A DNA stretch of 64,000 bases, taken from Deltaproteobacteria bacterium (GTDB taxonomy: Bacteria > SZUA-79 > Acidulodesulfobacterales > Acidulodesulfobacteraceae). Numbering within the stretch: the first letter of the stretch is position 1; the number at the start of each line of letters is the position of its first letter. Below, in pieces: positions 25,955 through 41,003 of this stretch. Both the position numbers and the translations under genes were made by a program. Under the pieces are notes generated by a model that saw only the letters and a list, made by a program, of their open reading frames with translations, was not told the DNA's origin and did not search any database. The stretch lies in NCBI GenBank assembly GCA_023489335.1, contig JAMDCP010000007.1:1-64000 (forward strand), given 5' to 3'.

Positions 25955-26617
25955 CTATTTTAACGACTCAAGGTATCTTGCGATTGTGTTAAGCTGCGAT
26001 GCGGGAATATTTTTTAATTCGGGCATTATCACAAGATAAGTATGTCCATTAATGGTAGCCGGTATTCCGTAAGTAAAATGAACGCTCGGAGCGACTATTT
26101 GAGTTTCAATCCATGACAGGCTTTTTGTTTTTCCGATATGGGAAAGGTTGGGGCCGACAGTGCCGCCTACTCCATTTATTCTGTGGCAGGCAACACAGTT
26201 ATCCGCTCTGAAAAGCAAAAGCCCTTTAGGCGGTTTTTTGTAAGCCAAATTTGCTCTCTTATACGGAAAAGATTTAATGTATCCGGCTAATTTATTGACA
26301 ACCGAAGAGGGTATGGTTTTTGCAAATCCAGGCATCCTGGTTAAATAAATTTTCCCGTTAATTTCCTTTTTCTCCCCCAAAATAAAATGGCTATCGGGAT
26401 TTAGTATCTGGGCTTTAATCCAGGAAAAACTTTTTGTTTTTCCGACATAGGAAAGATCAGGCCCGACTGTTCCGCCCTGATGTCCCAAGGTGTGGCAATC
26501 GATGCAGTAATATTCCTTAAAAAGTTTAGGCCCCGAAGGCAATGCAAAAGCAAAATTCGAAATAAAAAAAATAGCCGCCATGCAAAATGCCATGACAAAA
26601 AAAATATACCTTTTCAT
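25955..26617 (-). CDS. Exported diheme cytochrome c made of two tandem small-cytochrome domains
   Basis: A signal peptide (IFFVMAFCMAAIFFISNFAFA) precedes two homologous class I cytochrome c domains with heme motifs CIDCH and CVACH. Each is followed by the same pattern GGTVGPxLSxxGKTKSxSWI and a later PxHF segment and methionine region, so it should be a periplasmic electron carrier. It ends in YLESLK like the small cytochromes at 37.4-38.7 kb, so the five domains are one paralogous family. It has its own upstream copy of the three-half-site regulatory element, so it is predicted to be coregulated with the d1 operon although it lies downstream of its response regulator. Confidence 0.92.
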   Translation of the reverse strand: MKRYIFFVMAFCMAAIFFISNFAFALPSGPKLFKEYYCIDCHTLGHQGGTVGPDLSYVGKTKSFSWIKAQILNPDSHFILGEKKEINGKIYLTRMPGFAKTIPSSVVNKLAGYIKSFPYKRANLAYKKPPKGLLLFRADNCVACHRINGVGGTVGPNLSHIGKTKSLSWIETQIVAPSVHFTYGIPATINGHTYLVIMPELKNIPASQLNTIARYLESLK

Positions 26618-26684
26618 TTTTTGTTCCTCCTTAATCTTGTTTGCAATAAAAAATCATTATTAATCTCATTATCTAAATCATCCT

Positions 26685-26746
26685 CTTTTTAAATTATCAC
26701 TCCCCGCCAAAGGGGGGCTTCGAAGGGGGAGTGATAATTTAAAAAG
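26685..26746. repeat. Perfect 21-bp inverted repeat (hairpin) in the cytochrome leader
   Basis: The arm 26685-26705 (CTTTTTAAATTATCACTCCCC, split here as CTTTTTAAATT + ATCACTCCCC) is perfectly complementary to 26726-26746, around a 20-base G-rich loop containing CTTCGAAG. It lies between the diheme cytochrome start and its upstream regulatory element. It may be a terminator/attenuator, an mRNA-stabilising hairpin or a small palindromic repeat unit. No clear U-run follows the stem on either strand beyond the A/T tract inside the arms. Confidence 0.8.
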
Positions 26747-26778
26747 CTATCAAGATGCACTCTTATTCTCTATTAAAA

Positions 26779-26870
26779 ATTATATTGCGCATTATCCTCA
26801 ATTTATGTAGGAAAAATGCTGATTTTTGTAGGATAAATTTTTAAAGAAAATGTAAGGAAAAAACTTATAA
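26779..26870 (-). promoter_or_regulatory. Regulatory element copy B with -10-like box, upstream of the diheme cytochrome
   Basis: Read on the plus strand, three half-sites start at 26808 (TAGGAAAAA), 26829 (TAGGATAAA) and 26853 (TAAGGAAAA), spaced 21 and 24 bp. The central core CTGATTTTTGTAGGATAAA is nearly identical to copies A and C. Downstream in the direction of transcription is ATTATA (plus strand 26779-26784), that is TATAAT on the minus strand. The element is predicted to bind the NarL-like regulators encoded in this region. Its distance to the start codon is about 190 bases, longer than in the other copies, because the 62-base hairpin lies between. Confidence 0.75.
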
Positions 26871-26880
26871 TAAAAATTCC

Positions 26881-27540
26881 TTATTGTTTTAAAATTTTAA
26901 GTTTTTCTACAATAAAATCTACAAGTTCGGATTTCTTCTCGAGACCCAATTTTTCCATTCCTCTTGAACGGTATGTTGTAATGGTTTTCTCGCTCAATAA
27001 GTGTTTTTCCGCAATTTCCTTATTTGTAAAACCATGCGCAATGCCTATCATAACCTCCTGTTCTCTTGGACTTAAACTATTCCAGAGAAATTCCCCCTTG
27101 CTTAATTTACCGTCCCGAATCTTGGATTGCGGGCCGCTTATAAATCCTTCTACCATGGAAGGATGAATATAGATTTCTCCTCTTGCCACCGTTCTGATTG
27201 CATAAATTAAATCGTAATCCATTGCCTTTTTTACTAAAAACCCCGACGCTCCCAAATCAAGAGCTTTCTTAAGATACTGCTTATCTTCATACATGGTTAA
27301 CACCAGTATTCTTGATTCCGGCGATACTTTTTTAAATTTTATAATCAGGTCCAGTCCGTTTGCGTCTGGTAAAGATATATCAAGCAGCACAATATCGGGG
27401 TTTTTTGACTTTATAAGTTGAACGGCGGATAACGCATCCGGCGCCATGCCGACCACTTTTATATCGTCCTGACCGTCAAGCAAAACCTTTAAGGCAGTGA
27501 GCAATATATAATGGTCGTCAACCATACATATTGTTATCAT
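26881..27540 (-). CDS. NarL/FixJ-type response regulator, paralogue 1
   Basis: The 219-residue protein has a receiver domain (acidic pocket VDDHYILL, phospho-acceptor aspartate in IVLLDISLPD, conserved lysine in SGFLVKKAMDYD). A LuxR/NarL helix-turn-helix follows, SPREQEVMIGIAHGFTNKEI then AEKHLLSEKTI. It closely resembles the regulator at 38837-39493. It is the last gene of the operon beginning with the d1 cytochrome, 42 bases after the molybdopterin subunit. No kinase adjoins it, so it may share the kinase at 39495-41003 or form a feedback loop. It is a likely DNA-binding candidate for the three repeated elements. Confidence 0.93.
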   Translation of the reverse strand: MITICMVDDHYILLTALKVLLDGQDDIKVVGMAPDALSAVQLIKSKNPDIVLLDISLPDANGLDLIIKFKKVSPESRILVLTMYEDKQYLKKALDLGASGFLVKKAMDYDLIYAIRTVARGEIYIHPSMVEGFISGPQSKIRDGKLSKGEFLWNSLSPREQEVMIGIAHGFTNKEIAEKHLLSEKTITTYRSRGMEKLGLEKKSELVDFIVEKLKILKQ

Positions 27541-27582
27541 TTTTCACTCCTTAAAGGTTTACATAAACATGTTAATTTTTTC

Positions 27583-30500
27583 TCACAGCTTTTCTATCCT
27601 GACCGGAGCGTAGTAGTAAACCATCGAGCCTCCCACCGGGTCAGTTAAGTTTGTCGCCCATCCGTCTTTGGCCGCAATGGAGTTGTCCAGAAGGAACAGG
27701 GCATTCGGATGAACTCCCTGATTCCTTGCGGGGTCTCCCGTATATTTTTTCCCGTCTATATACCACTCTCCCGAGCCGTAAAGCCACCTTCCGAAAGCAG
27801 TCGCCGCAGTGATGACGCCCGGCCTGACGGACGGCAAAATCCTTACCCTGTGGGTAATCCCTTTTGGATAGGTAGGCGATATTACCTTTATGGTATCTCC
27901 ATCGGACAAGCCAATCTTTTTGGCATCTATAGCGCCAATCTCCCAGAATGCATCGGGAAGCAGTTCCTGAAGCCACGGATCGGCCATAGTCCTGGATTTT
28001 GAATGTATCGGCTGTCTGTGGGTGGAAACCATTAAAGGATATTCTTTCCGCGAATATATTTTATCTAAAATTTCGCCTTTCATATTTCTGTGGGGCAACA
28101 ATATCGTCGTTCCGTTGAACCTTTCGCCCGAAATAGCATTATGTGTCGTAGCTACCTGTTCGTTATACAAATGAACCGGGGTATCGGGCGACCACAGATG
28201 CGTTACCCATTTCGGTTTTCCCCAGGGAAGATATCCCGTGTCGTAATCCTCGAACCTGCCGCCTCTTGCAATCACGTACGCCGTTTTTTTCCACTCCGCA
28301 GGTTTAAGAGCTTTCCCGTGTTTTCTTATGTAATTTTTTACATATTGCATTTCATCCGCATTTGCATCGGGAACGGGTCCCAAATGAACAAATCCGTTCC
28401 CCTTTTTCTTTAGAAAGGTTTTGCCGTCATAGGCTATATTGGCAGCCATTTTGAGATAATAATCCTCTCTTTCGTCAAGACTTCCGCCCTCAAGGAAGGC
28501 GTTTTCGCCGAATCCGGGAAGTTTAATAGATTTTGCGACATCTATTAAAAAATTCTCCACGCAAATGGGTCTTCCGTCCGGAGTCTTTTCGGTCATAGGC
28601 TCTGTAACGGGCTGCCTGATGGAAGTCCTTGCGGTGGGATATGTCGGAAGGTTGCCGAGGAATCCCCACCCTTCAAGATATGTCGTATCCGGAACTATAT
28701 AGTCCGCATAAGCGCTACTTTCCGAAATATAGGCATCCGATGCGATAAATAACGGTACTTTATCCGTATCTTTTATCATTCTCATCCACGGCTTTGATTC
28801 ATCGTTGATTCCGCCCATTGCAGGCATAGACCAGGCGGGATTCGCCATGTGCTGAAATAATATCTTTACGGGATAGGGGTACTGGAAATATGTTCCGCCC
28901 CAGATCTCCTGCCACATGCCGAAGCTGAAAGGAAACCAGGGCCTTTGCGCCGGATACGGGGAAATTCCCCTTGACGCTTTTTCTTTATATTCTAACGTAT
29001 CTTCGTAATATGAACCTTCTCTTGAAATCTTTACGCCCTTTGCGGGAACGAAGCCCGGCCACTTTCCAAGATTATAGGGATAGCCCTTGCCGCCCATTAT
29101 GTTTGCGCTTCCCCCTCCGTTAATATAACCCCCCTGCCAGTTTATATTGCCCACCATGACATTTAAAAGCTGGATAGCCCTGCCGTTATAAAACCCGTTC
29201 GTGTGCTTTACCGGACCCCTGTAATAATCCGCCACCGCCGTTTTGCCGTGGGAGGTAAACTCCTGCGCAAGCTCCGTTACCACCCTCGGTGCAAGTCCGG
29301 CTTCCCTGGCATATTCGTCTAAACTATGTCTGACGAGTTCGCTCCAGAGCATCTGCATGGATGTCATGCAGTTAACGCCGTTAACCAGAACTGGGCTTAA
29401 GGATAAAAACCCGGTAGGCCAGAGTTCGCCTTTTGTAGAAACAGAGGTAAGAACGGGCTTTTTGGTAAACTTATCCACGGCATAAAAAGAGCTTCCGCTC
29501 TTCAGGAACTTTGCAAAGTCCTTGTTCCCCTCATCGGCTACTACAAGGTAGGACGCATTGGAAAAGTTAGGTTCTCCGCTTGCGTTTGCGGAAGCGTGGT
29601 TTAAGTTTTCAAGGAAGTTCCCGTCGTATCTTTTGTTTTCTATTATCCATCTAAGCATGCCCATGGCTAAAGCCCCGTCGCCGCCGGGGACTATGGGGAT
29701 ATACTTATCCGCATGGGCAATCATATTGCCCGCCCTTACATCTATTACCGTTACTTTTAATCTGCCTGACGATGTAGCGGCTACCGTTCTTCTTGCCAGA
29801 GTCTGCATAGGAAAGTTGGCTTCAAGATAATTGGCTCCGAAAATCAGGAGATGCTCGCAGTTAGGCAGATCTGGCTTAAGCATATTGGTTCCGGGGAACG
29901 TCCTGAATGTCGATACGTGATGAGATAAGTCGCAGATAGAAACATGGGGCAGGGCGTTCACCGAACCAAGCGCATTGGCAAACCTTGCCATAAGATTGGA
30001 CACCCCACCCTCGCCCCTGCCCCAGTAAGAAACATACTGGTTGGTTCTGGGTCCGAAATCGGGGTATTTTGGGTTTGCGGGGATAAACCTGTTCCTGCCT
30101 TCGTTCCATAAGTGCTTAAAGCCTTCCACGAACCTTTTCTCCTCCCCCGGCACATCCTTAAAGAGATAACCGCCGTTTACCACTTCGTCTATTAACTGTT
30201 CGTAGGAAATTGCCCTGAACTTCTTGGAACCCCTTTCCCCGACCCTTTTTAAGGGCATGTATATGCGGTAGGGGTCGTAAACGGTCTGCCTTCCAGCCAC
30301 GCCCCTTGGGCATACGGAGTGTGCTCCGTCAACGAAAGGCCGTTCGCTCGGCGAATAATACGACCCGGTATAAATTATCGAATCCTTTGCGGGGGTCGAA
30401 TACCTGATATTGGGTTGCGTAGTCTGTATGTCATAGGGATTGCCGAAAATCGGCAATATCGTTCCGTTGAACTTTCTTACCATAATCCCGCAATCGCTAT

Positions 30501-30684
30501 GGCATTGCTTGCAGGTCGAATATATAACCTCTTCGCCGGGCCATGTCTCAGGCCTTGTCGGGAATGTATATTCCCCCTCGTAATAAAACATCCCTCCCGC
30601 CCACTGGCTTAAACCGGCTCCGGTTGCCACGGCAGACACTCCAAAAACCCCGTACTTAAGAAAATCTCTTCTATTCATAGACAT
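27583..30684 (-). CDS. Tat-exported molybdopterin oxidoreductase catalytic subunit (TtrA/ArrA/PsrA-like)
   Basis: A 1033-residue DMSO-reductase-family protein. The Tat signal is NRRDFLKYG at residues 4-12. A [4Fe-4S] site is visible as CKQCHSDC (58-65) plus SVCPRGV (C125); the long gap before the fourth cysteine recalls tetrathionate/arsenate reductase-like members. HVSICDLSHH places a candidate molybdenum-ligand cysteine at residue 251. The C-terminal molybdopterin-dinucleotide domain includes PIHSKSRTMADPW and GLSDGDTIKVISPTYPKG. With the Fe-S and NrfD subunits upstream it forms a CISM-type complex facing the periplasm. Size suits TtrA (about 1000 residues), but sulfur, polysulfide, arsenic and nitrogen substrates cannot be distinguished. 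Confidence 0.9.
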   Translation of the reverse strand: MSMNRRDFLKYGVFGVSAVATGAGLSQWAGGMFYYEGEYTFPTRPETWPGEEVIYSTCKQCHSDCGIMVRKFNGTILPIFGNPYDIQTTQPNIRYSTPAKDSIIYTGSYYSPSERPFVDGAHSVCPRGVAGRQTVYDPYRIYMPLKRVGERGSKKFRAISYEQLIDEVVNGGYLFKDVPGEEKRFVEGFKHLWNEGRNRFIPANPKYPDFGPRTNQYVSYWGRGEGGVSNLMARFANALGSVNALPHVSICDLSHHVSTFRTFPGTNMLKPDLPNCEHLLIFGANYLEANFPMQTLARRTVAATSSGRLKVTVIDVRAGNMIAHADKYIPIVPGGDGALAMGMLRWIIENKRYDGNFLENLNHASANASGEPNFSNASYLVVADEGNKDFAKFLKSGSSFYAVDKFTKKPVLTSVSTKGELWPTGFLSLSPVLVNGVNCMTSMQMLWSELVRHSLDEYAREAGLAPRVVTELAQEFTSHGKTAVADYYRGPVKHTNGFYNGRAIQLLNVMVGNINWQGGYINGGGSANIMGGKGYPYNLGKWPGFVPAKGVKISREGSYYEDTLEYKEKASRGISPYPAQRPWFPFSFGMWQEIWGGTYFQYPYPVKILFQHMANPAWSMPAMGGINDESKPWMRMIKDTDKVPLFIASDAYISESSAYADYIVPDTTYLEGWGFLGNLPTYPTARTSIRQPVTEPMTEKTPDGRPICVENFLIDVAKSIKLPGFGENAFLEGGSLDEREDYYLKMAANIAYDGKTFLKKKGNGFVHLGPVPDANADEMQYVKNYIRKHGKALKPAEWKKTAYVIARGGRFEDYDTGYLPWGKPKWVTHLWSPDTPVHLYNEQVATTHNAISGERFNGTTILLPHRNMKGEILDKIYSRKEYPLMVSTHRQPIHSKSRTMADPWLQELLPDAFWEIGAIDAKKIGLSDGDTIKVISPTYPKGITHRVRILPSVRPGVITAATAFGRWLYGSGEWYIDGKKYTGDPARNQGVHPNALFLLDNSIAAKDGWATNLTDPVGGSMVYYYAPVRIEKL

Positions 30685-30702
30685 TATAAAGCCTCCTTAT
30701 TT

Positions 30703-31950
30703 TTACCTCTTATTATTTTTACCTTCTATTTCTTCCTTTCCGTCCCATTCGAACTCGAATTTCGGTTTCGGCGGCAGGCTTAATTCTTCGGGGTCGTGTT
30801 CCCATCCTAAAAAATAGCCGAAAACGAATATTAAAAGAATACCCAATCCAAATAACCCTATGCCTGTCAAATATCCATCGTAACCCAAGAATGGAATATG
30901 TAAGTTAACAAGCCCCTGCCCTATCCTTGTTGGAAGCTGTCCGCCGATTACTGTATCGAACCTCATTTCGAAAACGCCTACCGTAACGATAAAATCTAAA
31001 ATTAATGTCCAGGCTAACGACCTCCTGACCTTTTCGAATACAAGGAATAAAAATGCCGGGATTATAAGTCCTAAGCCTATTTGCAACACATGATAATTAA
31101 ACCATAACGGACCGTGGCCTGCAAAACTATATACCGCATGCCAGTTATCATACACTGCTTTTGAATTATATCCGCGCACCGAATAGAGCCATTCGATTAA
31201 ATCGAAAAAAAGGTCCGCAAATATTGCATAGACTAAAGACTTATTAAGAACATCCAGAGTATCCGGTTCAACCTTATTTTTCTTCGAAAACAAAGGAAAA
31301 CCGATACCGTATAATAAGCCTACAAAAGCAATGCCCGAAACAACCGCCGATGCTATAAACATAGGGGGTATGACAGGGTCGGACCATAATGCCCGTGCCT
31401 TTATGGCGCCGAATAAAAATCCGACATAACCGTGAAATAAAATAGAAAGAATAATTCCGAGAATGGATATGATCCAGAGGGCTTTATGGTCCCTCGCAAT
31501 GCTTTCTTTAGATAAATCCGTGCTTCCCAATGTTAAAATTTTGGATACCTTGCCCCTTATTCCTTTATCCTTACTTGCCCTTTTAATATTGCTTTCCCTG
31601 AAGAGATAATAAAGTTCGAAAAGAAAGGCGATAACAAATATTGTCCATATTATAATGAACATGCCCAGAGGCGAATAGGGGAAATGGTCCCTGAAATATA
31701 ATTCCCATATAGCCCTCGAAGGCTGAAGCGCATCTGCTAAAGGCGCTATCGCCGCCAGTAAAAGCATTGCAAAACTTGCTATTAAGGAAAGCTGGGAAAT
31801 AGGCTTAAGCTTTTCTATGTGAAAAAGGTGGTACAATGCCCCAACGACGAAAGAACCTGCCAGCAAACCCGAAAGAAACGGATAAATCACTATGGGCAGC
31901 CCCCAGTAAATATTTTCCAAAGTACCGTAAGAACCGTTAATTGCAATCAT
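30703..31950 (-). CDS. NrfD/PsrC-type integral membrane subunit of the molybdopterin complex
   Basis: The 415-residue protein has about nine or ten hydrophobic helices and the NrfD-family pattern, including IVIYPFLSGLLAGSFVVGAL at the N-terminus and an acidic residue-rich loop (ELYFRDHFPYSPLG). This family exchanges electrons with membrane quinones and has no heme of its own. It lies between the Fe-S subunit (34 bases upstream) and the catalytic subunit (18 bases downstream), the typical three-subunit arrangement. The charged C-terminal tail is probably cytoplasmic. Confidence 0.9.
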   Translation of the reverse strand: MIAINGSYGTLENIYWGLPIVIYPFLSGLLAGSFVVGALYHLFHIEKLKPISQLSLIASFAMLLLAAIAPLADALQPSRAIWELYFRDHFPYSPLGMFIIIWTIFVIAFLFELYYLFRESNIKRASKDKGIRGKVSKILTLGSTDLSKESIARDHKALWIISILGIILSILFHGYVGFLFGAIKARALWSDPVIPPMFIASAVVSGIAFVGLLYGIGFPLFSKKNKVEPDTLDVLNKSLVYAIFADLFFDLIEWLYSVRGYNSKAVYDNWHAVYSFAGHGPLWFNYHVLQIGLGLIIPAFLFLVFEKVRRSLAWTLILDFIVTVGVFEMRFDTVIGGQLPTRIGQGLVNLHIPFLGYDGYLTGIGLFGLGILLIFVFGYFLGWEHDPEELSLPPKPKFEFEWDGKEEIEGKNNKR

Positions 31951-31984
31951 AATATTTGCTCCTTAAAATAAAATAAATTTAAAA

Positions 31985-33178
31985 TTAACCGGCGTAAGGG
32001 TGTTCCCTTTCTTCTATATATGGCAATACGGGTGTTCCGCCTAATTTTTCGTAAGCATTGGTTTTAAGACCCATCGTATATGTGTAAATCATCTTTACCT
32101 TTTCGGGATTAGTTGGGCCTGCAAAATTTTCGTCGAGTCCTATGTAGTAAACCTGAGGGTCTGTCCCATAGGATAGATTTAGCCTCGAGGTTTTATTGGT
32201 CGCTATTAATCTTGAAACCTCGCTCTCCGGATCGTTTGTGTCTCCAAACTTCATCGCCCTTCCAACGCATGAAGTAACACAAACCGGTAAAAGCGGAGTA
32301 TATGGCCTTTCATGGGAAACCGCCGCTCTGCTTGCACACATATTGCATTTGTCCGCGGTATGTTGTACCGGGTTTGCAAATCTCATGTTATACGGACATG
32401 CCTGAACGCAGGTAAGGCATCCGATACATAAATCGTAATCGATTTCAACCTGTCCCGTCTCCAGCTTATATGTGGCCTTTACGGGACACACCTCGACGCA
32501 CGGGGGGTGGTCGCAATGGTTACATGTTCTGGGAAGAAAAAATCTCTTGACATTAGGGGTATAATTCCCTTCTTCCGTAACAACTATGCCGTTCGCATCA
32601 GGAACCATTTCCCCTGTCTCCATAACATCCACAACTCTTCTAAAAACCCCGAGAGGGACGGAGTTTTCGCTTTTACAGGCGACAACGCAAGCCTGGCATC
32701 CGACGCATTTATTGACATCTATTACAAAGACAAAATGGTGTATTTTAGGTCTTATTTCCTTTATTCTATAAAATTTATCGTGAAAAATTCTGGCGTGAAG
32801 CGGATTCTGAATTGTATTCTGCCAGTGGTCCCACCCGTCTTTTATGTACTGCGACGGATTTTTCCAGTTCATCCATCTGTGGTTTTTTAAAGGTCCGGTT
32901 ATAACGCCCGTGCCTTTTTCCTGCGTATTTAAACCGCCGCCGCTTCCTTTAAGTTTTTTTAACGGAGCGGCTAAAACTTCTTTTGGGTTAGATAAGCCGA
33001 GTATTCCGAGAGCCGATGCCGCCAATCCTCCCAATCCGAGCATTTTGAGAAATTTTCTTCGACCGGAATTTTCTTCGTCTTTCACGATATTACCGGTTCC
33101 ATCCCTGACCCAGCTCTTTTCGATTTGTCTTTCATTTTCCGTTAGTTCTTCGTTTGACTTTTCTTTTTTCTTCTTCAT
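31985..33178 (-). CDS. Four-cluster ferredoxin-like electron transfer subunit with Tat-like signal
   Basis: The 397-residue protein has an internal twin-arginine motif (RRKFLKMLGLGG near residue 40) and then a DmsB/PsrB/TtrB-type domain with 16 cysteines in four sets: CVGCQACVVAC, CNHCDHPPCVEVCP, CIGCLTCVQACP and CNMCASR...CVTSCVGRA. These should bind four [4Fe-4S] clusters that wire the catalytic subunit to the NrfD-like subunit. The N-terminal region before the Tat motif is unusually long and lysine/glutamate-rich. Its own Tat motif, like that of TtrB-type proteins, supports a periplasmic complex. Confidence 0.92.
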   Translation of the reverse strand: MKKKKEKSNEELTENERQIEKSWVRDGTGNIVKDEENSGRRKFLKMLGLGGLAASALGILGLSNPKEVLAAPLKKLKGSGGGLNTQEKGTGVITGPLKNHRWMNWKNPSQYIKDGWDHWQNTIQNPLHARIFHDKFYRIKEIRPKIHHFVFVIDVNKCVGCQACVVACKSENSVPLGVFRRVVDVMETGEMVPDANGIVVTEEGNYTPNVKRFFLPRTCNHCDHPPCVEVCPVKATYKLETGQVEIDYDLCIGCLTCVQACPYNMRFANPVQHTADKCNMCASRAAVSHERPYTPLLPVCVTSCVGRAMKFGDTNDPESEVSRLIATNKTSRLNLSYGTDPQVYYIGLDENFAGPTNPEKVKMIYTYTMGLKTNAYEKLGGTPVLPYIEEREHPYAG

Positions 33179-33199
33179 TTAATTCCCCCTAATTAATTT

Positions 33200-34375
33200 T
33201 TATTGTTGTTTATATAATTTATCAGGAACCCTGAATATCCCCGAAGGACTTGGAACAGGTATCCTGTCAAGTTCTTTTCCCGTACGCGCATCGAAAACAT
33301 TTACGGAATTCCCGAAATAATCCGATGCGTAAATTAATCTGCCCTGTCCCGAAAAACTCATAAACATAATTCTTCTTCCCGCTTTTATGTTTTTTATAAC
33401 CTTCATATCTTTTGCATCTATAAGCGTCAAATAATCGTGCCTGCTTCCACTGTAATTTATTGCCATTACTTTACGGTCAGGGGAAAATATTATGAATATG
33501 GGATAGCCGATAAGATTTACGGAACCTATTTTCTTTCTGGTTTTTAAATTCATAACGACTAATTTTTTTTCTCCGGCGGCGGGTATGAAGGCTTTATTGT
33601 TCCATATCGAATAAATGCCGTAATGCGGTATTTGATGAGGAAAATTCTCTTTTCCCCCGTAGGTTACGATGTGATATTCCAGGGTATTTAGATTTAATAC
33701 CCCAAACTTTTCTCCCAAAAGAAAGGCGGCTATGTAATCATGGCCGGACACTAAGGCATCGATGGGGAGTTTCCCGATGTTTTTTATTTTCTTTACAACC
33801 TTAAAGCCTTTAGAGATATTAACCACCCAAATCTGGTCCTTGCCCATAAGCTCGAATATAAGATAATTTTTATAAAACTCCACGCCTATGTTTCTTGAAC
33901 CTGTTTTTATTGTTTTTATCGTCTTTAAATCCTTATTAAGTATGACGACATCATTCGGGTCGTAATTTGCAACAGCTATATAATTTTTCGATAAACAAAA
34001 ATCTACCGTATCAATGGATACCTTCTTTTGTTTTATTATCCTGTTCGTTTTTGTGTCTATTTTAGATAAATAGCCGTTTCTGCTGATTGCATAACCGTAA
34101 TGTCTCCCAAAATACACTATGACATGGGTCCCGTTTCCTATACGCTTTATTATGCCCGTCAGTTTGTTATGCGACACTATGCCTAACGAACTGTCCGCCC
34201 TTTCCACAACATAATACTTGTCCGCAAAAACGGGCTTACACGAAATAAAAATAACGACCGTTGCAATAAAGATTAAAATTACATAAAACAGGCGGGGTCT
34301 TCCTGAAAGTAGTCCCCGTAAACCGCATAAGCCCTTGCCCTCGAACCGCCGTTGCAGACTTCCAAATAATTGCAT
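33200..34375 (-). CDS. nirF: NirF-like heme d1 biosynthesis protein (beta-propeller lipoprotein)
   Basis: NirF acts in the periplasm late in heme d1 synthesis. The sequence is a propeller-like repeat protein with stretches that match NirF by eye: VERADSSLGIVSHNKLTGI, PIDALVSGHDYIAAFLLGE, IPHYGIYSIWNNKAFIPAAG and the C-terminal VPSPSGIF. A hydrophobic segment ends in FISC, a lipobox-like site, consistent with lipoprotein forms of NirF. The ATG at 34375 has a good GGAAGG ribosome binding site, but it lies inside nirJ (97-base overlap in another frame), giving an unusual 28-residue arginine-rich leader. The next possible start is a CTG near 34291. It follows nirJ and precedes the Fe-S subunit by 21 bases. 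Confidence 0.82.
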   Translation of the reverse strand: MQLFGSLQRRFEGKGLCGLRGLLSGRPRLFYVILIFIATVVIFISCKPVFADKYYVVERADSSLGIVSHNKLTGIIKRIGNGTHVIVYFGRHYGYAISRNGYLSKIDTKTNRIIKQKKVSIDTVDFCLSKNYIAVANYDPNDVVILNKDLKTIKTIKTGSRNIGVEFYKNYLIFELMGKDQIWVVNISKGFKVVKKIKNIGKLPIDALVSGHDYIAAFLLGEKFGVLNLNTLEYHIVTYGGKENFPHQIPHYGIYSIWNNKAFIPAAGEKKLVVMNLKTRKKIGSVNLIGYPIFIIFSPDRKVMAINYSGSRHDYLTLIDAKDMKVIKNIKAGRRIMFMSFSGQGRLIYASDYFGNSVNVFDARTGKELDRIPVPSPSGIFRVPDKLYKQQ

Positions 34376-35376
34376 TTTTCACACCTTCCTTTTAGTTTTC
34401 TTGGCATTTCTCTTAATTTAGAAAATAATTTGTCTTCGCTTATTATCTCGAAAAAATCTCTATCCTTTATGTTCCCCGCTTTATAATTAAAAAACGGGTC
34501 CGGTTTAACAAATCCCGAATAATCTATGTTTATTATTCTTTTGCCCGATTGATTCCCTCCCCATTCCAATATTTTTTCGCGCATATTGTCATAAAATTCA
34601 GGGCAACGGCTTTTAAACATTTCAAGCAGTAAAATCGCATCAGGCTCGTTGTTTCCCGTAACAATATCTACCAGAATGCCGTCTTTCACAAAATTAAAGG
34701 CTGTCTCTATAACATATGAAGATATTTTTTTACGAACTGTTTTGTCTATTTCGGATGTAATGCTTCCTCTTCCCGAATAGACAAGATGAGAGATATATAA
34801 CTTTTTTACATCTTCTTTCTTAGCCATTTCGAATATAAAGGCAATGTCTTTATAGTTATACGCGGTAAGCGAGGTTCTTAAACCAACATTAACGCTTTTA
34901 TTCTTAAGCAGTCTGAGGGCTTTTAGCGAAGCCTCATATGCCCCCTCCCGCTGCCTGAACCTATCGTGCGTTTTTTCCGTCCCGTCTATGCTTATGCCGA
35001 CATAATTGAAAAGGGATTTTATCCTGCCTATATTATTTTCATTTATCATCGTTCCGTTTGTGGAGAGGTGTACCTGAAAACCGTTATCTTTGAGGATTAC
35101 TGCTATGTCAAAAAGGAACGGGGACATAAGCGGCTCGCCGCCCGAAAGTATAACGGCCTTCACATCGGCCTTTTTTAAAGACTTTACCGTGGATAGCACG
35201 AGCTCCGGCGTGAGCTTTTGAGCTATTTCGCTTTTTCCGGAGGAAGAATAACAATGCTCGCAGGAAAGATTGCAGTCGTTAGTTATATTCCATATAAGCA
35301 GTCTTCCTTTGTGGGACTTACCGCTCTGCGAATCCGGTTCTAAAGATTTTTTTATATAATCCGTTACCCTGAGCAT
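34279..35376 (-). CDS. nirJ: NirJ-like radical SAM protein (heme d1 biosynthesis)
   Basis: A radical SAM/SPASM enzyme of 365 residues. The SAM-cluster motif is CNLSCEHC (residues 35-42), followed by SGGEPLMSP and the C-terminal cysteine set GRCEKCNYLEVCNGG plus a last cysteine two residues before the end, for an auxiliary cluster. In d1 synthesis NirJ removes propionate side chains from didecarboxysiroheme. Related enzymes are AhbC/AhbD of alternative heme synthesis and PqqE-type maturases. The adjacent NirF-like and d1-type proteins favour NirJ. Its start overlaps the stop of the d1 cytochrome gene (TAATG), so translation is coupled. Confidence 0.82.
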   Translation of the reverse strand: MLRVTDYIKKSLEPDSQSGKSHKGRLLIWNITNDCNLSCEHCYSSSGKSEIAQKLTPELVLSTVKSLKKADVKAVILSGGEPLMSPFLFDIAVILKDNGFQVHLSTNGTMINENNIGRIKSLFNYVGISIDGTEKTHDRFRQREGAYEASLKALRLLKNKSVNVGLRTSLTAYNYKDIAFIFEMAKKEDVKKLYISHLVYSGRGSITSEIDKTVRKKISSYVIETAFNFVKDGILVDIVTGNNEPDAILLLEMFKSRCPEFYDNMREKILEWGGNQSGKRIINIDYSGFVKPDPFFNYKAGNIKDRDFFEIISEDKLFSKLREMPRKLKGRCEKCNYLEVCNGGSRARAYAVYGDYFQEDPACFM

Positions 35377-37121
35377 TAGTTTCCATGCCTCCAGAAATTT
35401 CTATTGCCCGCATCTTTTATAAAATCTATTAGCGCTTTAAACTCTTCCTTAGTCAGCTTGAATTTCGGCATAGCGTTATATTTATACCCAAGCAGTCTGG
35501 AAACCCTGCCGGGGTTTGTTACCTGGGCTTTAATTCCTGCATCGTTCAAATGCTTTGCTATATAAGCAAATGAGGGACCTATAGACTGCATCGTCGGGTT
35601 ATGGCACCCCCAGCAGTATGTGAAATAAACCTCTCCCCCCAAAAGTGCGGCGTCGTTCATTCTTTGATAGTTTACATAGTTATATTTTCCTATAACACCG
35701 TTCGCGGATATGCTTTTAATAATTCTCAACGAGTTTGTATTCATAATTGCAAGCTCCCCGTTTCTGCCGTAGTCGCTCACATAGGCAAGCCTTTCGTTCC
35801 CCGAAAACTGCGTATGTATGACAAGTCCGCCCTTTTTTATGACAACCTTTTTCACTTTAAAGTCATGTTTATTTATAAGAATGACTGCGTCCGAGCTGTT
35901 GTCCACCCAGAGATATTTTGTATAAGGGTTGGTTTTTACAAAAAATCCGGGTCCGCCGGTAAATACATTTCTTATAAACTTCCAGTCATACATCTGCCAT
36001 ACGGAAACAAAAGGCTTTGTCAGATTGGTCAAGGCAAAGTAAAACCTGCCTTTTCTAAACCAGAAGGATGCTCCGGCAGGGTGGGGTATTCCGTATGATT
36101 TATGAGAGCAAGCAATCCTTTTTTTCCTAAGGCTGAAAACATAAATCCTGCCGCCTTTAAAGGAACCACCAACGGCATATTCGTCTAAAGGGTCGACGAA
36201 AAAGTCCTGAAAAGGCATTGGAAGAGCATAATAAGCCGTATTTAATGTTTTTGTGTTAAGTATTCCTATTTTGGATTTATGCATAAAGGAAAATACCGCC
36301 ATGTTGTTTCTAAACAAACCGTAGATTACGCTTATTCTGTGTTTTAAAGGTATTATCTTTCGGGGTTCCAAGTTTTTAGCATTTAAAATAACGATGGATT
36401 CTGGAAGCCAGCAGGCGGCTATAACATACTTTCCGCCTTCGGAGAGGGAAATATTCCTTAAATAACGGCAGGCTCTCACTTTATAGTCTAATCTTTTGGC
36501 ATAAAAGTCATACTTGCCCACATAGCCCGTGTTAGACGGAAGATATAAATACCTCCCGTTAGGGGAATACTTAAGTCCACCGTGAATATTACCGAAATCA
36601 AACTTATTTAATATCTTAGTTCCTTTCATTATCCAGACCTTGCCGGTTCCGCCTTCTACCACTGCCATAAGATTTTTAACATTAACGGGCTTAATATCGG
36701 AATTATCCTTATTTTCATATTCTATAAGGCTGTTTTCTATATCCCGTTTTGTCCAGCGGACCTTCTTTGACGGCATTCTTAGATAACTTATTAAATCCGA
36801 TAAATCTTCAGGCGATAACTCCTTGAAGGAAGGCATGGGTATCGGATATAATCCCTTCGTTATAATAGTTTCAAGTTTATTGCGGGAGTAATGCCCGATA
36901 AACCCGGGTATAAGCGGAGGAGCTGTTTTTCCGAGCCTGTTTGCGCCGTGGCAGGCGAAACAGCCGTTTTGGATATAAATTTTACGGCCGAGCTTCTGCC
37001 TTTCCTTAAGGTTAGGGATAGGAGTAGATTCGTTTTGGGCGTTCACAGGCGACGCAATGTACAACGGCAAGGAAACGACCGATAGAAGCAATATCAAAAT
37101 TGTATTTTTAAGGGTTTTCAT
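35376..37121 (-). CDS. Cytochrome c - d1 propeller - cytochrome c protein, NirS/NirN-like
   Basis: An exported protein of about 580 residues. A signal peptide precedes a class I cytochrome c domain (CFACH), then a d1-type propeller and a second, C-terminal cytochrome c domain (CWGCH). The propeller aligns by eye with NirS: NIHGGLKYSPNGRYLYLP keeps the proximal heme-d1 histidine, YVIAACWLPESIVILNAKNL matches, and IPHPAGASFW keeps one distal histidine. The other distal histidine position appears to be Phe. Standard NirS and NirN have only the N-terminal cytochrome. It could be a nitrite reductase with fused NirC-like domain, a NirN-like dehydrogenase or another d1 enzyme. The start at 37121 was chosen over a TTG at 37151 because of GAGAG spacing. 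Confidence 0.82.
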   Translation of the reverse strand: MKTLKNTILILLLSVVSLPLYIASPVNAQNESTPIPNLKERQKLGRKIYIQNGCFACHGANRLGKTAPPLIPGFIGHYSRNKLETIITKGLYPIPMPSFKELSPEDLSDLISYLRMPSKKVRWTKRDIENSLIEYENKDNSDIKPVNVKNLMAVVEGGTGKVWIMKGTKILNKFDFGNIHGGLKYSPNGRYLYLPSNTGYVGKYDFYAKRLDYKVRACRYLRNISLSEGGKYVIAACWLPESIVILNAKNLEPRKIIPLKHRISVIYGLFRNNMAVFSFMHKSKIGILNTKTLNTAYYALPMPFQDFFVDPLDEYAVGGSFKGGRIYVFSLRKKRIACSHKSYGIPHPAGASFWFRKGRFYFALTNLTKPFVSVWQMYDWKFIRNVFTGGPGFFVKTNPYTKYLWVDNSSDAVILINKHDFKVKKVVIKKGGLVIHTQFSGNERLAYVSDYGRNGELAIMNTNSLRIIKSISANGVIGKYNYVNYQRMNDAALLGGEVYFTYCWGCHNPTMQSIGPSFAYIAKHLNDAGIKAQVTNPGRVSRLLGYKYNAMPKFKLTKEEFKALIDFIKDAGNRNFWRHGN

Positions 37122-37176
37122 TATCATGCTCTCTTTATATGCCGATAACAAGTAATAACTTAATCTTGCATTTAAG

Positions 37177-37264
37177 TCTAATACGGCATCTAATGGTTTT
37201 AAATAGGGTAAAAACTGATTTTTGTAGGGTAAATTTGGAAATAAAATGTAGGGGAAAAACCTAT
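37177..37264 (-). promoter_or_regulatory. Regulatory element copy A with -10-like box, upstream of the d1 operon
   Basis: On the plus strand the half-sites start at 37204 (TAGGGTAAA), 37225 (TAGGGTAAA) and 37249 (TAGGGGAAA), spaced 21 and 24 bp, exactly as in copies B and C. The core CTGATTTTTGTAGGGTAAA is shared. Downstream in the minus direction, TATTAGA (plus strand 37177-37183) starts 24 bases after the beginning of the proximal half-site, the same offset as in copy C, and could be the -10 region. The element is about 80 bases from the start codon of the d1 cytochrome. Confidence 0.78.
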
Positions 37265-37330
37265 GTCCCGGTGAAGGTATATTTGTATTAGGTATATTAA
37301 TTGAGCAAGGGTATTTTAATCGCGCATTAA

Positions 37331-37368
37331 AAAAGCGGACTGCGCATTAGGCACGCGAGCCCGCTTTT
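37331..37368 (-). terminator. Intrinsic terminator after the three-cytochrome unit
   Basis: AAAAGCGG (37331-37338) pairs with CCGCTTTT (37361-37368); on the minus strand the stem is followed by a run of T. It lies just after the stop at 37391 and separates the cytochrome cluster from the d1 operon with its own regulatory element. Confidence 0.75.
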
Positions 37369-37390
37369 GTTTAATCGTTTTCGGTTATAT

Positions 37391-37747
37391 TTACTTTAAC
37401 GATTCCAGATAATTTGCAACCGCATTCAGCTCTGCCGTGGAAAGCATATTCTTAAATGAGGGCATCATAATTGTATATTTTTTTCCGTTAATAAAAGCGC
37501 TGCCTCCCGGATTAAAATAATTATTGGGATTTTTAACGAAGTCTTTTATCCATTCGAGACTTTTTCTCGAACCTACATTGCTAAGATTAGGACCCATATT
37601 ACCGCCGCTTCCATTAATGGTATGGCAGTTTATGCATCCCTTGGTTTCGAAAACAGTCCTGCCGGATGCGGCAAAAACCACATTAACACCATAAAAAATA
37701 AAGAAAAAAAATAAAAAAAGCCTTAAAATAATTTTGTTTTCTTTCAT
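37391..37747 (-). CDS. Small exported cytochrome c (CINCH)
   Basis: This protein of about 118 residues has a strong signal peptide (IILRLFLFFFFIFYGVNVVFA), one CINCH heme motif, the shared GGNMGPNLSNVGSRKSLEWI pattern and a candidate axial methionine in IMMPSFKNM. It ends in YLESLK. It is a soluble periplasmic electron carrier, likely a partner of the d1 or molybdopterin enzyme. A longer frame starts with GTG at 37765, but GGAGG is spaced for the ATG at 37747. It is third in a row of three related cytochromes on the same strand. Confidence 0.9.
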   Translation of the reverse strand: MKENKIILRLFLFFFFIFYGVNVVFAASGRTVFETKGCINCHTINGSGGNMGPNLSNVGSRKSLEWIKDFVKNPNNYFNPGGSAFINGKKYTIMMPSFKNMLSTAELNAVANYLESLK

Positions 37748-37857
37748 TTCTTCATGCCTCCACACCTCCGTAAATTTAATTATAGTTTTATAGCCTTGCC
37801 TTATTATAAATCATTACTCAAAAAATTGCCCGCGGCATTCAAAATAATGAATCTGAA

Positions 37858-38220
37858 TTATTTCAAGGATGCTAAATATTGTGTAAGCCTATTAAGACTT
37901 TTGGCATTTATTTTTTTATTTGCGGGCATAATCGACTCATACACCTTTCCATGAAAAATGACAAAAGAGTGGGGCGTAAAAAAATTTAAGCCGGGGTTCT
38001 TTATCTGCCTTCTAATCCAGGAATAGCTTCTGATTTTACCTATATCCGAAAGGTTTGGACCCCACGACCCGCCTTTTCCGTGAATGGCATGGCATAAAAT
38101 ACACCCCTCCTTTTTAAACAACTGTTTACCCGTCATGTTGCCTGCCATGGCATAACCCGCATTTAAATTTATTACAGTAAATCCTATTACAAAAACCGCT
38201 AATAAAAACATATTTTTCAT
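37858..38220 (-). CDS. Small exported cytochrome c (CILCH)
   Basis: This protein of about 120 residues has a signal peptide (MFLLAVFVIGFTVINLNAGY), one CILCH heme motif, then HGKGGSWGPNLSDIGKIRSY, SWIRRQIKNP and a candidate axial methionine in ESIMPANK. It ends in YLASLK. AGAGGAG before the ATG at 38220 decides the start over an upstream ATG at 38274. It is the most diverged copy of the local cytochrome family. It should be periplasmic and cotranscribed with its neighbours. Confidence 0.9.
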   Translation of the reverse strand: MKNMFLLAVFVIGFTVINLNAGYAMAGNMTGKQLFKKEGCILCHAIHGKGGSWGPNLSDIGKIRSYSWIRRQIKNPGLNFFTPHSFVIFHGKVYESIMPANKKINAKSLNRLTQYLASLK

Positions 38221-38347
38221 GATTTTAATCTCCTCTAAATAAGTATAGATTCCTGCTGAAGCGGGTTGGGACAAAAGTAAAATAGCATGAAATTTTCTAT
38301 ACTATCCTACCCTAAGACCCTGCAGAGAATACGCTTTTATTAAAACC

Positions 38348-38686
38348 CTATTTTAGCGATTCCAAATATTCAGCTACAGTTTCGAGCTGCGCAGGTTTTA
38401 AATGAAAATGGGGCATTATAGACGACGGATTATGGTCGCCCGGATTCTTAATTTGTACTTCGAGCCAGTGAATACTGTGCCCTTTTGCTCCTTCGGTAGA
38501 AAGAGCCGGCCCGATTGTCCCGCCGACGCCGTTTATCGTATGGCAGCTCAGGCATCCGTTCGCATTAATAATCTTCATAGCCCTTGCGGCATTTGATGTT
38601 TGCGCCTGAGCTTTGGCGGCGCCGTAAAGAAATAAAATTGATAAAAACATAGAAAAAACAACAATCATTATCCTATAACTTTTCAT
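38348..38686 (-). CDS. Small exported cytochrome c (CLSCH)
   Basis: A 112-residue cytochrome with signal peptide (IMIVVFSMFLSILFLYGAAKA), heme motif CLSCH, GVGGTIGPALSTEGAKGHSI, HWLEVQIKNPG, and a candidate axial methionine in SSIMPHFHL. It ends in YLESLK. It is the first gene downstream of regulatory element copy C, about 76 bases from the proximal half-site, and so probably leads a three-cytochrome transcription unit that stops at 37331-37368. Confidence 0.9.
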   Translation of the reverse strand: MKSYRIMIVVFSMFLSILFLYGAAKAQAQTSNAARAMKIINANGCLSCHTINGVGGTIGPALSTEGAKGHSIHWLEVQIKNPGDHNPSSIMPHFHLKPAQLETVAEYLESLK

Positions 38687-38734
38687 TTTTAATACCCCCT
38701 TGAATTTATCTTTTTGTTATTTTTATAATTTTAA

Positions 38735-38824
38735 TCTAATATATAATAAGGGGATTTAAAATAGGGTAAACGCTGATTTTTGTAAGATAAATTAGGAAAT
38801 TTTTTGTAGGCAATAAACTTACGC
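38735..38824 (-). promoter_or_regulatory. Regulatory element copy C with -10-like box, upstream of the three cytochromes
   Basis: Half-sites on the plus strand start at 38762 (TAGGGTAAA), 38783 (TAAGATAAA) and 38807 (TAGGCAATA), spaced 21 and 24 bp. The core CTGATTTTTGTAAGATAAA matches copies A and B with one or two changes. A TATTAGA box (plus strand 38735-38741) follows at the same offset as in copy A. The element lies immediately downstream of the response regulator gene at 38837-39493. Confidence 0.76.
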
Positions 38825-38836
38825 GAAAGGATTATA

Positions 38837-39493
38837 TTATTTTTTTAATATCTTAAGCTTAAAAAAAATTAAATCTATTAACTCCGATTTATTTTCGAAG
38901 CCCAATTTTTCCATGCCTCTTGAACGATATGTCGCAACGGTTTTCTCGCTCAAAAAGTGCTTCTCGGCAATTTCTTTATTGGTAAAACCCTTGGCAACCC
39001 CGGTCATAACCTCCTTTTCCCGATTACTTAAAGCATTCCATAAAGCCTCTTCCCTGCTAAGAACATCCTCCGATGCTTTATTCTTATTCGCCATAAAATC
39101 TTCAAGCAGCTGCGGATGTATATATATTTCCCCACGCGCTACCGTCCTTATCGCATAGACTAAATCATAGTCCATGGCTTTTTTTACCAAAAAACCGGAA
39201 GCGCCTGCATCGAGAACTTTTTGCATATACTGCTTATCTTCGAACATAGTTAAAATCAGTATTTTTGAGTTGGGCGAAACTTTTTTGATTTTTGGAATTA
39301 AATCGATTCCGCTTATCTTCGGCATGGATATGTCAAGCAAAACGACATCGGGGTTTTTCGTTTTTATAAGTTCGACGGCACGCAAAGCATCATTGGCTGT
39401 TCCCGCAACACTAATGCCTTCCTGGCTGTCTAAAAATATTTTTAAAGTCGTAAGCAATATAGAATGGTCGTCAACTAATACTATTGTTATCAT
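38837..39493 (-). CDS. NarL/FixJ-type response regulator, paralogue 2
   Basis: A 218-residue regulator with receiver domain (VDDHSILL, DVVLLDISMPKI, GFLVKKAMDYD) and a LuxR-type helix-turn-helix (SNREKEVMTGVAKGFTNKEI, AEKHFLSEKTVATYRSRG). It is one base downstream of the histidine kinase gene, so they form a cognate pair. It is very similar along its length to the regulator at 26881-27540, including the recognition helix, so both may bind the same sites. The repeated element copy C starts directly after this gene. Confidence 0.94.
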   Translation of the reverse strand: MITIVLVDDHSILLTTLKIFLDSQEGISVAGTANDALRAVELIKTKNPDVVLLDISMPKISGIDLIPKIKKVSPNSKILILTMFEDKQYMQKVLDAGASGFLVKKAMDYDLVYAIRTVARGEIYIHPQLLEDFMANKNKASEDVLSREEALWNALSNREKEVMTGVAKGFTNKEIAEKHFLSEKTVATYRSRGMEKLGFENKSELIDLIFFKLKILKK

Positions 39494-39494
39494 A

Positions 39495-41003
39495 TCAGGT
39501 ATTCTCCCTCTTATCTATAACAGGAATATAAAATTTGACCACTGTCCCTAAATTTTTTTCGGATTCGACGGTCAATTCGCCTCCAAATATTTTTGCCCTT
39601 TCTTTCATGCCGTTTATTCCCAAATAATCCTTATTTTCGTCGCAACATCCAAAGCCTTTTCCATCATCCTGAACGATACCCCTAATTTTTCCATCACGCA
39701 TTTCAAGAATTATGGTAACGGAATTGGCGCATGCATGGCGGATAGCATTTAATATTGCCTCCTGAACTATCCTGTATATATTTACTTCCATATTTTTATC
39801 CAGAATGTAATTCTCGATATTGATGGGATAAAAATCTATTTTCATATTAGGATTATTTTTAACAGCCGTCTCAATATATTGATTAATAGCATTAATCAAC
39901 CCTGCTTCATCGAGTATGCTGGGCCTTAAGTTTTTAGCTATATCATGTATGAGATTAAACCCTTCCGTTAAATCATCCCTTATTTGATGAATTTTAATTT
40001 TAACTTCACCCGGGTCATTTATATCGTCAAGTATTCTGAGCCTTATTTTTAAGGAAGAAAGAAATTGACCAAGCGTGTCATGCAGACTGCGGGAGATATT
40101 TTTTCTTTCTTCTTCCTGCGCATTAATGACCCCGCTTATAAAATTCTTCCTTAAGTCTTCATTTTTAATCTTCTCCAGTTCCGCTTCCTTTAAGCTTAAA
40201 GCCATTTCGTTAAAAGCTTTCGAAAGTTTTCCTATCTCATCACCACCTAAAGTATTAACATGAACATCGTAATCGCCATTTTTTATCCTTTCGGCAGCTT
40301 CCCAAAGCTTAACTATCGGGGTCGAAAACCGCCATGCAATAATCTCAAACATCAAATACAACAAAATAGCCGTAAATATTAAAATTAAGCCGATATTTTT
40401 ATAAAAAGAGGGGGCTTCGCGCGTAAAAAAGGAGTCTTTCAAATGTTTCAGGGATACGCCAATCCTTATAACCCCAAGTTTACCGTTAAATACGGGAACG
40501 GATGTATCCAAAATTTTTCCATATACGGCGCTTGCTAATTTAACGGTAGATAAATGATTTCGGGCACCCTTAACCTTTAATACATTATTAGCGATATCTA
40601 AATAAAAACCCTTCCGAAAAGCGGAGGCAATTATTACCCCTTTGTTATTACGGTAAAATATATACAGGATACTCTTATTATTTTTAATCTCGTTCCTTAG
40701 TAAATTATTCAGCCTGTTAACATTTCGATTAAGAATAAAATTTGCCGCATTTTCTTTGATATGCCTTTCAATAACTATACTCATAAACTTTGCATCATGA
40801 GAAATTTCCCCGTTATAAAAAGAAAACATAAAATATATAATCACGAACCCTAAAAAAAGCGTTATAAATATAGCAAGGCCGATTAACTTAATCCTTATGG
40901 AAACATTAAAAATTTTTTTCCAAATATTTAATATGGGGTAAGAAAGAAAACGAAATCCTCTCTCATGGGGCATATTTTTAATTTTTATCTTATTTGGCTT
41001 CAT
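39495..41003 (-). CDS. NarX-like membrane histidine kinase
   Basis: A 502-residue kinase. A first transmembrane helix (about residues 38-62) is followed by a periplasmic sensor region of about 130 residues, a second helix (IGLILIFTAILLYLMFEIIA) and a HAMP domain. The dimerisation/phospho-acceptor region is of the HisKA_3 type (ERKNISRSLHDTLGQFLSSL, histidine in SLHD), and the HATPase domain has N and G boxes (ILNAIRHACANS, VQDDGKGFG). It probably senses a respiratory substrate or redox cue in the periplasm; the ligand is unknown. It is paired with the regulator at 38837-39493. Confidence 0.93.
   Translation of the reverse strand: MKPNKIKIKNMPHERGFRFLSYPILNIWKKIFNVSIRIKLIGLAIFITLFLGFVIIYFMFSFYNGEISHDAKFMSIVIERHIKENAANFILNRNVNRLNNLLRNEIKNNKSILYIFYRNNKGVIIASAFRKGFYLDIANNVLKVKGARNHLSTVKLASAVYGKILDTSVPVFNGKLGVIRIGVSLKHLKDSFFTREAPSFYKNIGLILIFTAILLYLMFEIIAWRFSTPIVKLWEAAERIKNGDYDVHVNTLGGDEIGKLSKAFNEMALSLKEAELEKIKNEDLRKNFISGVINAQEEERKNISRSLHDTLGQFLSSLKIRLRILDDINDPGEVKIKIHQIRDDLTEGFNLIHDIAKNLRPSILDEAGLINAINQYIETAVKNNPNMKIDFYPINIENYILDKNMEVNIYRIVQEAILNAIRHACANSVTIILEMRDGKIRGIVQDDGKGFGCCDENKDYLGINGMKERAKIFGGELTVESEKNLGTVVKFYIPVIDKRENT

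Follow-up and report, generated by a model that had tools for sequence, protein, structure and literature searches.

Genes for the late steps of heme d1 synthesis lie within an operon of the tetrathionate reductase (Ttr) type in a bacterium of the family Acidulodesulfobacteraceae (assembly GCA_023489335.1). The stretch of DNA analyzed here, referred to as the window, comprises positions 1 to 64,000 of contig JAMDCP010000007.1, and the locus occupies positions 25,955 to 41,003 on the minus strand. The reading that we favor, with a probability of roughly 0.45, is that the late d1 pathway was recruited into a ttr regulon and that heme d1 would be retained on a fusion of NirN with a NirC-like cytochrome (NirN-NirC), which would act as a periplasmic redox enzyme. 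Retention on this protein is proposed because there is no NirS to receive heme d1: a d1-domain search of all 30 genomes of the family found NirS in none of the 11 that carry the operon. Since no enzyme other than NirS is known to use heme d1, the cofactor probably has an undescribed job in these bacteria. The comparison set consisted of draft assemblies of 30 genomes (species) of one family of uncultured bacteria known from metagenomes, the window's own genome (1.80 Mb, 92% complete) among them.

The gene run and its heme d1 proteins

An earlier note on this DNA had described a c-d1-c protein and a molybdopterin oxidoreductase as encoded in one operon and one regulon, and the genes are all present at the positions that it gave. 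The features of the locus, with lengths in amino acids (aa), are:

39495..41003, minus strand: sensor histidine kinase (HAMP, HisKA_3), to which a paralogue encoded with the stand-alone ttr copy (L057) is 43% identical
38837..39493, minus strand: RR1, NarL/LuxR-type response regulator
38762..38791, minus strand: regulon element (30 bp), copy 1, 75 bp ahead of the small cytochrome genes
38348..38686, minus strand: small monoheme cytochrome c, 112 aa
37858..38274, minus strand: small monoheme cytochrome c, 138 aa as listed, with a later ATG as the likely start
37391..37765, minus strand: small monoheme cytochrome c, 124 aa as listed
37204..37233, minus strand: regulon element (30 bp), copy 2, 82 bp ahead of the likely nirNC start
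35376..37151, minus strand: predicted NirN-NirC fusion (c-d1-c), 591 aa as listed, likely start near 37121; assigned by NirN clade, fold and residues
34279..35376, minus strand: NirJ, radical SAM protein of heme d1 synthesis, assigned by its TIGR04051 score against that of AhbC
33200..34375, minus strand: NirF, true start probably downstream; the N-terminus may be a membrane anchor or a lipoprotein signal
31985..33178, minus strand: TtrB-like Fe-S subunit with twin-arginine signal (NF011569, 183 bits)
30703..31950, minus strand: TtrC/NrfD-like membrane subunit (PF03916, 4e-36)
27583..30684, minus strand: TtrA-like molybdopterin catalytic subunit with twin-arginine signal (NF011567, 551 bits; tree)
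26881..27540, minus strand: RR2, second NarL/LuxR-type response regulator, final gene of the nirNC-ttrBCA unit
26808..26837, minus strand: regulon element (30 bp), copy 3, 190 bp ahead of the diheme cytochrome gene
25955..26617, minus strand: diheme cytochrome c

From 37151 to 26881 the genes nirNC, nirJ, nirF, ttrB, ttrC, ttrA and RR2 follow each other with no gap longer than 42 bp. The nirNC and nirJ genes overlap by 1 bp, nirJ and nirF also overlap, and the remaining gaps are 21 bp (nirF/ttrB), 34 bp (ttrB/ttrC), 18 bp (ttrC/ttrA) and 42 bp (ttrA/RR2). The kinase, RR1 and the three small cytochromes are encoded upstream of this run and the diheme cytochrome downstream.

The 591-aa protein has a Cytochrom_D1 domain (7e-42) flanked by two cytochrome c domains; NirF also matches Cytochrom_D1 (3e-27). 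A PDB search with the 591-aa protein gave 188 bits for NirN against 70 bits for NirS. In the tree it grouped with NirN of Hydrogenothermaceae/Campylobacterota (SH-aLRT 100) and then with proteobacterial NirN (94), and NirS formed a separate clade (100). Its predicted fold (mean pLDDT 71.6) was closest to NirN (Z 46.7, compared with at most 42.8 for NirS and 37.3 for NirF), and Foldseek concurred. Three histidines of the window protein, H190, H357 and H446, are invariant among the aligned relatives and are the equivalents of NirN His147, His323 and His417. From the 6RTE work we take these three to be essential in NirN, and their spacing of 176 and 94 residues agrees with the alignment. The equivalent of NirN Tyr461 is likewise kept, as Y490. 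NirS has His327 and His369 in its active site over heme d1 (PMC7278500); in all aligned carriers the His327 equivalent is replaced by Q (K in one), and the His369 equivalent is present. Tree, fold and the missing His327 rule out NirS as the identity of the c-d1-c protein. With all catalytic residues of NirN kept, a dehydrogenase activity on dihydro-heme d1 would be expected.

The C-terminal cytochrome of the protein matches, with 44% over 80 residues, the product of a separate cytochrome gene that precedes nirJ-nirF in Campylobacterota (L025). Because of this match and the gene position we label it NirC, and the whole protein is best assigned, from alignments and the modeled fold, as NirN fused to a NirC-like cytochrome. 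NirN is also fused with a C-terminal cytochrome in Hydrogenothermaceae (Aquificota, L024), where the gene lies behind nirS. The earlier note had seen a respiratory d1 enzyme in the c-d1-c protein. This does not stand on the evidence given there, since the protein appears to be a NirN-NirC fusion, a normally biosynthetic type, and no carrier has NirS.

Genes similar to nirJ in genomes without nirS are a known trap, as they are easily confused with AhbC/AhbD of the alternative heme pathway. The NirJ of the window scores 373 bits with TIGR04051, below the curated cut-off of 515, against 240 bits for AhbC and 184 bits for AhbD. That it is merely AhbC or AhbD is ruled out, since both are separate genes and the NirJ model scores highest. 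NirF matches the PDB structure of NirF (6tv2, E 2.7e-35) and falls in the NirF clade.

The supply of d1 precursors, for which the earlier note had pointed to nirE and nirD/L/G/H elsewhere in the genome, can be traced to other genes. A fused AhbA-AhbB siroheme decarboxylase is found in 26 of the 30 family genomes, including that of the window, where AhbC and AhbD genes adjoin a gene for a siroheme-type methyltransferase (siroheme branch). With these genes present, didecarboxysiroheme could be the point where the d1 pathway leaves the alternative heme pathway, with no need for nirD/L/G/H of its own.

The nir operon of denitrifiers (nirS with nirC, F, D/L/G/H, J, E and N, e.g., on the Pseudomonas mandelii plasmid, L096) likewise encodes NirJ, NirF, NirN and a NirC-like cytochrome. 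In contrast, the window operon has no nirS and no adjoining nirD/L/G/H or nirE, its NirN and NirC are fused, and it is embedded in a ttr operon. The closest relatives found of NirN-NirC are encoded by the nirS-nirNC genes of Hydrogenothermaceae (L024) and the nirS-nirN…nirC-nirJ-nirF genes of Campylobacterota (L025), with 47 and 36% identity, respectively. L025 has the same nirC-nirJ-nirF order, as separate genes. Unlike the window, both loci keep nirS upstream of nirN and have no ttr genes on the stretches examined. The Chloroflexi C1-C2-NirS fusion likewise combines one d1 domain with two cytochrome c domains in a single chain, but its NirS domain, in which the His327/His369 equivalents are retained, follows both cytochromes (PMC8756737), whereas the window protein is arranged c-d1-c around a NirN domain.

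A shared regulon element and its conservation

The pattern of the 30-bp element, TTTAYCYTACAAAAATCAGNNTTTWYCCTA, was searched for with up to three mismatches in the whole genome (1.80 Mb). Three copies were found, all mismatch-free and all in this cluster, and the reversed pattern used as a control had 0 matches. The element contains an internal direct repeat, TTTWYCCTA, with a spacing of 21 bp. Relatives have it at equivalent places, and in the 24 copies that were aligned its core is almost invariant. A pattern with slightly looser letters was found in 12 of 31 genomes, namely all 11 carriers and G002. Among the family genomes without a detected nirNC, an intact element was seen only in G002, whose copy adjoins RR2 and the diheme cytochrome gene where the contig ends.

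The small cytochromes, the nirNC…ttrA unit and the diheme cytochrome can be read from these sites as one regulon, in line with the earlier note. The extent of its single operon has to be corrected, as the genes probably form three transcription units: the small cytochromes, nirNC-nirJ-nirF-ttrBCA-RR2, and the diheme cytochrome. This division is based on the three elements and on a terminator-like hairpin with a T run at ∼37330–37370, between the small cytochromes and nirNC, which was seen by eye and is absent from the computed scan list; matches in a generic promoter and terminator scan were no more numerous than in shuffled sequence. Across the nirF/Fe-S junction the single operon holds, given the gaps of at most 42 bp, the conserved order and the shared element. 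An inverted repeat (∼21 bp per arm, by eye) lies at ∼26685–26746, between element copy 3 and the diheme cytochrome gene.

A weaker relative of the element (3 mismatches) precedes the stand-alone ttrB in the window's genome, and another is found at the stand-alone regulator locus of G025. The former suggests that the d1 genes were brought under a ttr-type regulator. In G025 the site found with the loose pattern lies at this stand-alone regulator locus, and the cytochrome promoter has a weaker copy. No separate copy of the element was found ahead of nirNC in G003, G006 and G025. Two weaker elements also occur in G022 (L121:5151, L121:16346; contig C1), at a cluster for c-type lipoproteins, a Cyc2-like porin and Rieske/cytochrome b, and the regulon may be wider in this species.

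Full relatives of the 591-aa protein are encoded in 11 of the 30 family genomes, including the window's, with 69–76% identity to the window protein. Carriers with sufficient DNA share the order kinase, regulator, small cytochromes, nirNC, nirJ, nirF, ttrB, ttrC, ttrA, regulator, diheme cytochrome, so the synteny of the d1 protein with genes of a complex iron-sulfur molybdoenzyme (CISM), proposed as a check in the earlier note, is conserved in 11 species. At the G025 carrier locus neither RR2 nor the kinase was detected. G002 and G020, which have pieces of the locus at contig ends, are probable further carriers. In G003 a gene for a 368-aa radical SAM protein (L123:14117-15223) lies between the small cytochromes and nirNC.

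The ratio of nonsynonymous to synonymous substitution rates (dN/dS) is 0.05–0.24 for nirNC, nirJ, nirF and ttrC, which rules out decaying d1 genes; dS is high between the more distant genomes. The linkage and the three-site regulon are kept across several genera. By these comparisons, the linkage of nirN, nirJ and nirF with ttr is more than chance and under strong purifying selection. Outside the family, no nir-ttr linkage was seen in 23 other genomes with TtrA relatives; one of them encodes both a NirN-like and a NirS-like protein, neither of them on the contig that bears its ttrA, and another gave a weak match to a cytochrome domain.

The molybdoenzyme and its stand-alone paralogue

The TtrA model matches the catalytic subunit over residues 50–1032, and the score given above does not reach the equivalog cut-off of 1750. 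By this rule the subunit is a TtrA relative and not an equivalog. It resembles TtrABC in the gene order B-C-A, in the length of TtrA (∼1000 aa) and in having TtrA as the nearest model. The annotated tetrathionate reductase genes ttrSR-ttrBCA (L077) have the same B-C-A order with LuxR/NarL-type two-component genes nearby, whereas the window adds d1 genes and cytochromes, and its TtrA is only ∼31% identical to the annotated one. No PhnD-like sensor protein was seen in the ttr copy of the window, while the stand-alone copy has one.

This stand-alone copy (L057), in the same genome, encodes a PhnD-like protein, kinase, regulator, TtrB, TtrC and TtrA without d1 genes, and its layout is that of the tetrathionate system (cf. 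L077, L078). Trees of the kinase, the regulator and the Fe-S subunit separate d1-linked and stand-alone copies into different clades; the NrfD tree mixes them. Between the TtrA copies of the genome (27583–30684 and L057:8872-11970) the identity is 88% overall and 56% in residues 37–116. In a TtrA tree from residues 117–1033 the stand-alone copies are interspersed with d1-linked copies from the same genome or a close one, and with residues 37–116 the copies sort by operon type. We read this as gene conversion that has homogenized the body of TtrA between the copies, while the region near the proximal Fe-S cluster has stayed distinct. Such homogenization suggests that the two complexes share a substrate or use similar ones, the likeliest being a sulfur oxyanion such as tetrathionate. 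The earlier note had allowed a nitrogen, sulfur or arsenic compound; the TtrA model, the trees and the layout of the paralogue now favor sulfur.

Other CISM-type ttr copies without d1 genes exist in the family, some with their own cytochromes, so the Ttr complex can do without d1. The single electron chain of the earlier note, from quinol through the molybdopterin complex to d1, would be one possibility. Two family members (G004/G015) have small cytochromes and a 73–74% identical diheme cytochrome beside a d1-less ttr cluster, so the cytochromes are not specific to d1. In G020 (L092:7322-15330, contig C54) a gene similar to nitric oxide (NO) reductase lies directly ahead of a d1-less PhnD-kinase-regulator-ttrB-ttrC set. 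G025 (L122, contig C57) has kept PhnD-kinase-regulator and the element relative, and has a TorD-like gene and a gene for a 538-aa exported protein in place of ttrBCA.

Possible roles of heme d1

A duplicated operon of the tetrathionate reductase type (kinase, regulator, ttrB, ttrC, ttrA) would have received the late d1 genes, which were thereby placed under the same regulator as ttr. NirJ would then divert didecarboxysiroheme, which is also needed for ordinary heme. NirF, which together with NirC makes the keto groups of heme d1, would add these in the periplasm with the NirC-type cytochrome, and NirN would form the acrylate to give heme d1 (chemistry of all three steps according to PMC13168839). 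Heme d1 would stay on NirN-NirC, a putative periplasmic c-d1-c oxidoreductase with the co-regulated small cytochromes as its electron partners. Both it and the Ttr complex would serve the same anaerobic condition and would for this reason be expressed together. For the reaction at d1, nitrite and sulfur oxyanions would be the first candidates.

Several points weigh against this reading. The known role of NirN is biosynthetic, and the aligned pocket shows no gained catalytic residue. Retention of d1 on NirN-NirC is deduced from the absence of NirS, and the acceptor of heme d1 might be some unrecognised protein. A role for tetrathionate rests on family resemblance (the ∼31% identity to annotated TtrA) and the paralogue layout. 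More tentative than recruitment and retention together is the proposal that NirN-NirC is a respiratory heme d1 enzyme working with the Ttr-type complex via shared small cytochromes.

The d1 and ttr genes could also be two functionally independent modules that share promoter and regulator, both being wanted without oxygen. The d1-less ttr copies are complete in themselves, and no cofactor or subunit common to both modules can be seen. We nevertheless consider this somewhat unlikely, given that several genera keep both the linkage and the three-site regulon, with strong purifying selection, and that the linkage is missing from other TtrA-bearing genomes.

It is unlikely, too, that heme d1 is loaded into another, unrecognised protein, with NirN-NirC merely the last biosynthetic enzyme as in denitrifiers. 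All NirN catalytic residues are kept, as in a working dehydrogenase, NirN and NirF of Pseudomonas interact with maturing NirS, and the NirN of Paracoccus could transfer d1 to NirS in vitro (PMC3694632). However, the d1-domain matches in the carriers are limited to NirN-NirC, NirF and YVTN-type propellers (PF02239) that are shared with non-carriers. One of these, a 465-aa propeller on contig C2, was considered as a d1 protein and rejected, as it is a plain YVTN repeat protein with no cytochrome motif and has its like in non-carriers. The remaining genes of the regulon encode small cytochromes, regulators and Ttr parts, most of which have relatives occurring without d1.

Less probable again is denitrification, with NirN-NirC as nitrite reductase, nitrite made from nitrate by the TtrA-like enzyme, and an NO reductase and NosZ completing the pathway. 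The window's genome does encode a 759-aa protein with the architecture of quinol NO reductase (PF00115 match) and a NosZ operon, and an NO-reductase-like gene occurs in 7 of the 11 carriers. Yet NirN-NirC lacks the NirS His327, and homogenization of the TtrA body with the stand-alone copy argues against a nitrate-specific change. NosZ is found in only one of the 11 carriers and in three non-carriers. G006 (99% complete) keeps the operon with TtrA as its sole molybdoenzyme match and no full-length match to NO reductase; as a common purpose denitrification is weakened by this genome and by the failure of NosZ to track the operon. The canonical set is incomplete in the window's genome: NosZ and the NO-reductase-like protein are present, NirS is absent, and neither NarG nor NapA was among the molybdoenzymes found (NirK was not searched for). 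Nitrite reduction by NirN-NirC is thus possible but not favored. Finally, an ordinary denitrifier whose NirS was lost in unassembled DNA is very unlikely, for although the genomes are draft assemblies, NirS is absent from 11 out of 11 carriers, some of them an estimated 96, 99, 99, and 100% complete.

The genes for the quinol-NO-reductase-like protein and NosZ lie in one stretch of a single contig (L081, G000:C8:205000-224900) together with genes for cytochrome bd, an Rrf2 regulator, a Cyc2-like porin-cytochrome and NosL-, NosR-, NosD- and NosF-like proteins. A formate-dehydrogenase-like gene (L090:6122-9154, G000:C11) has one in-frame TGA, which is probably a selenocysteine codon.

One passage of PMC6054029 describes heme d1 as occurring only in cytochrome cd1. 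Our literature searches for nirN, nirJ or nirF without nirS or with ttr genes found nothing, and the words nitrite, tetrathionate and nirS have no occurrence in the main text of PMC6776010 on Candidatus Acidulodesulfobacterales. The alternative heme pathway, the Cyc2-like proteins and a likeness to descriptions in that paper hint that the lineage may be this group from acid mine drainage. If NirN-NirC were respiratory, it would be the first enzyme besides NirS to use heme d1. A conserved d1 pathway that is under strong selection, shares the promoter system of ttr and has no NirS means that either heme d1 has a second use or NirN can be used in a second way. It is also a warning that NirN, NirF or NirJ in a metagenome is no proof of nitrite respiration.

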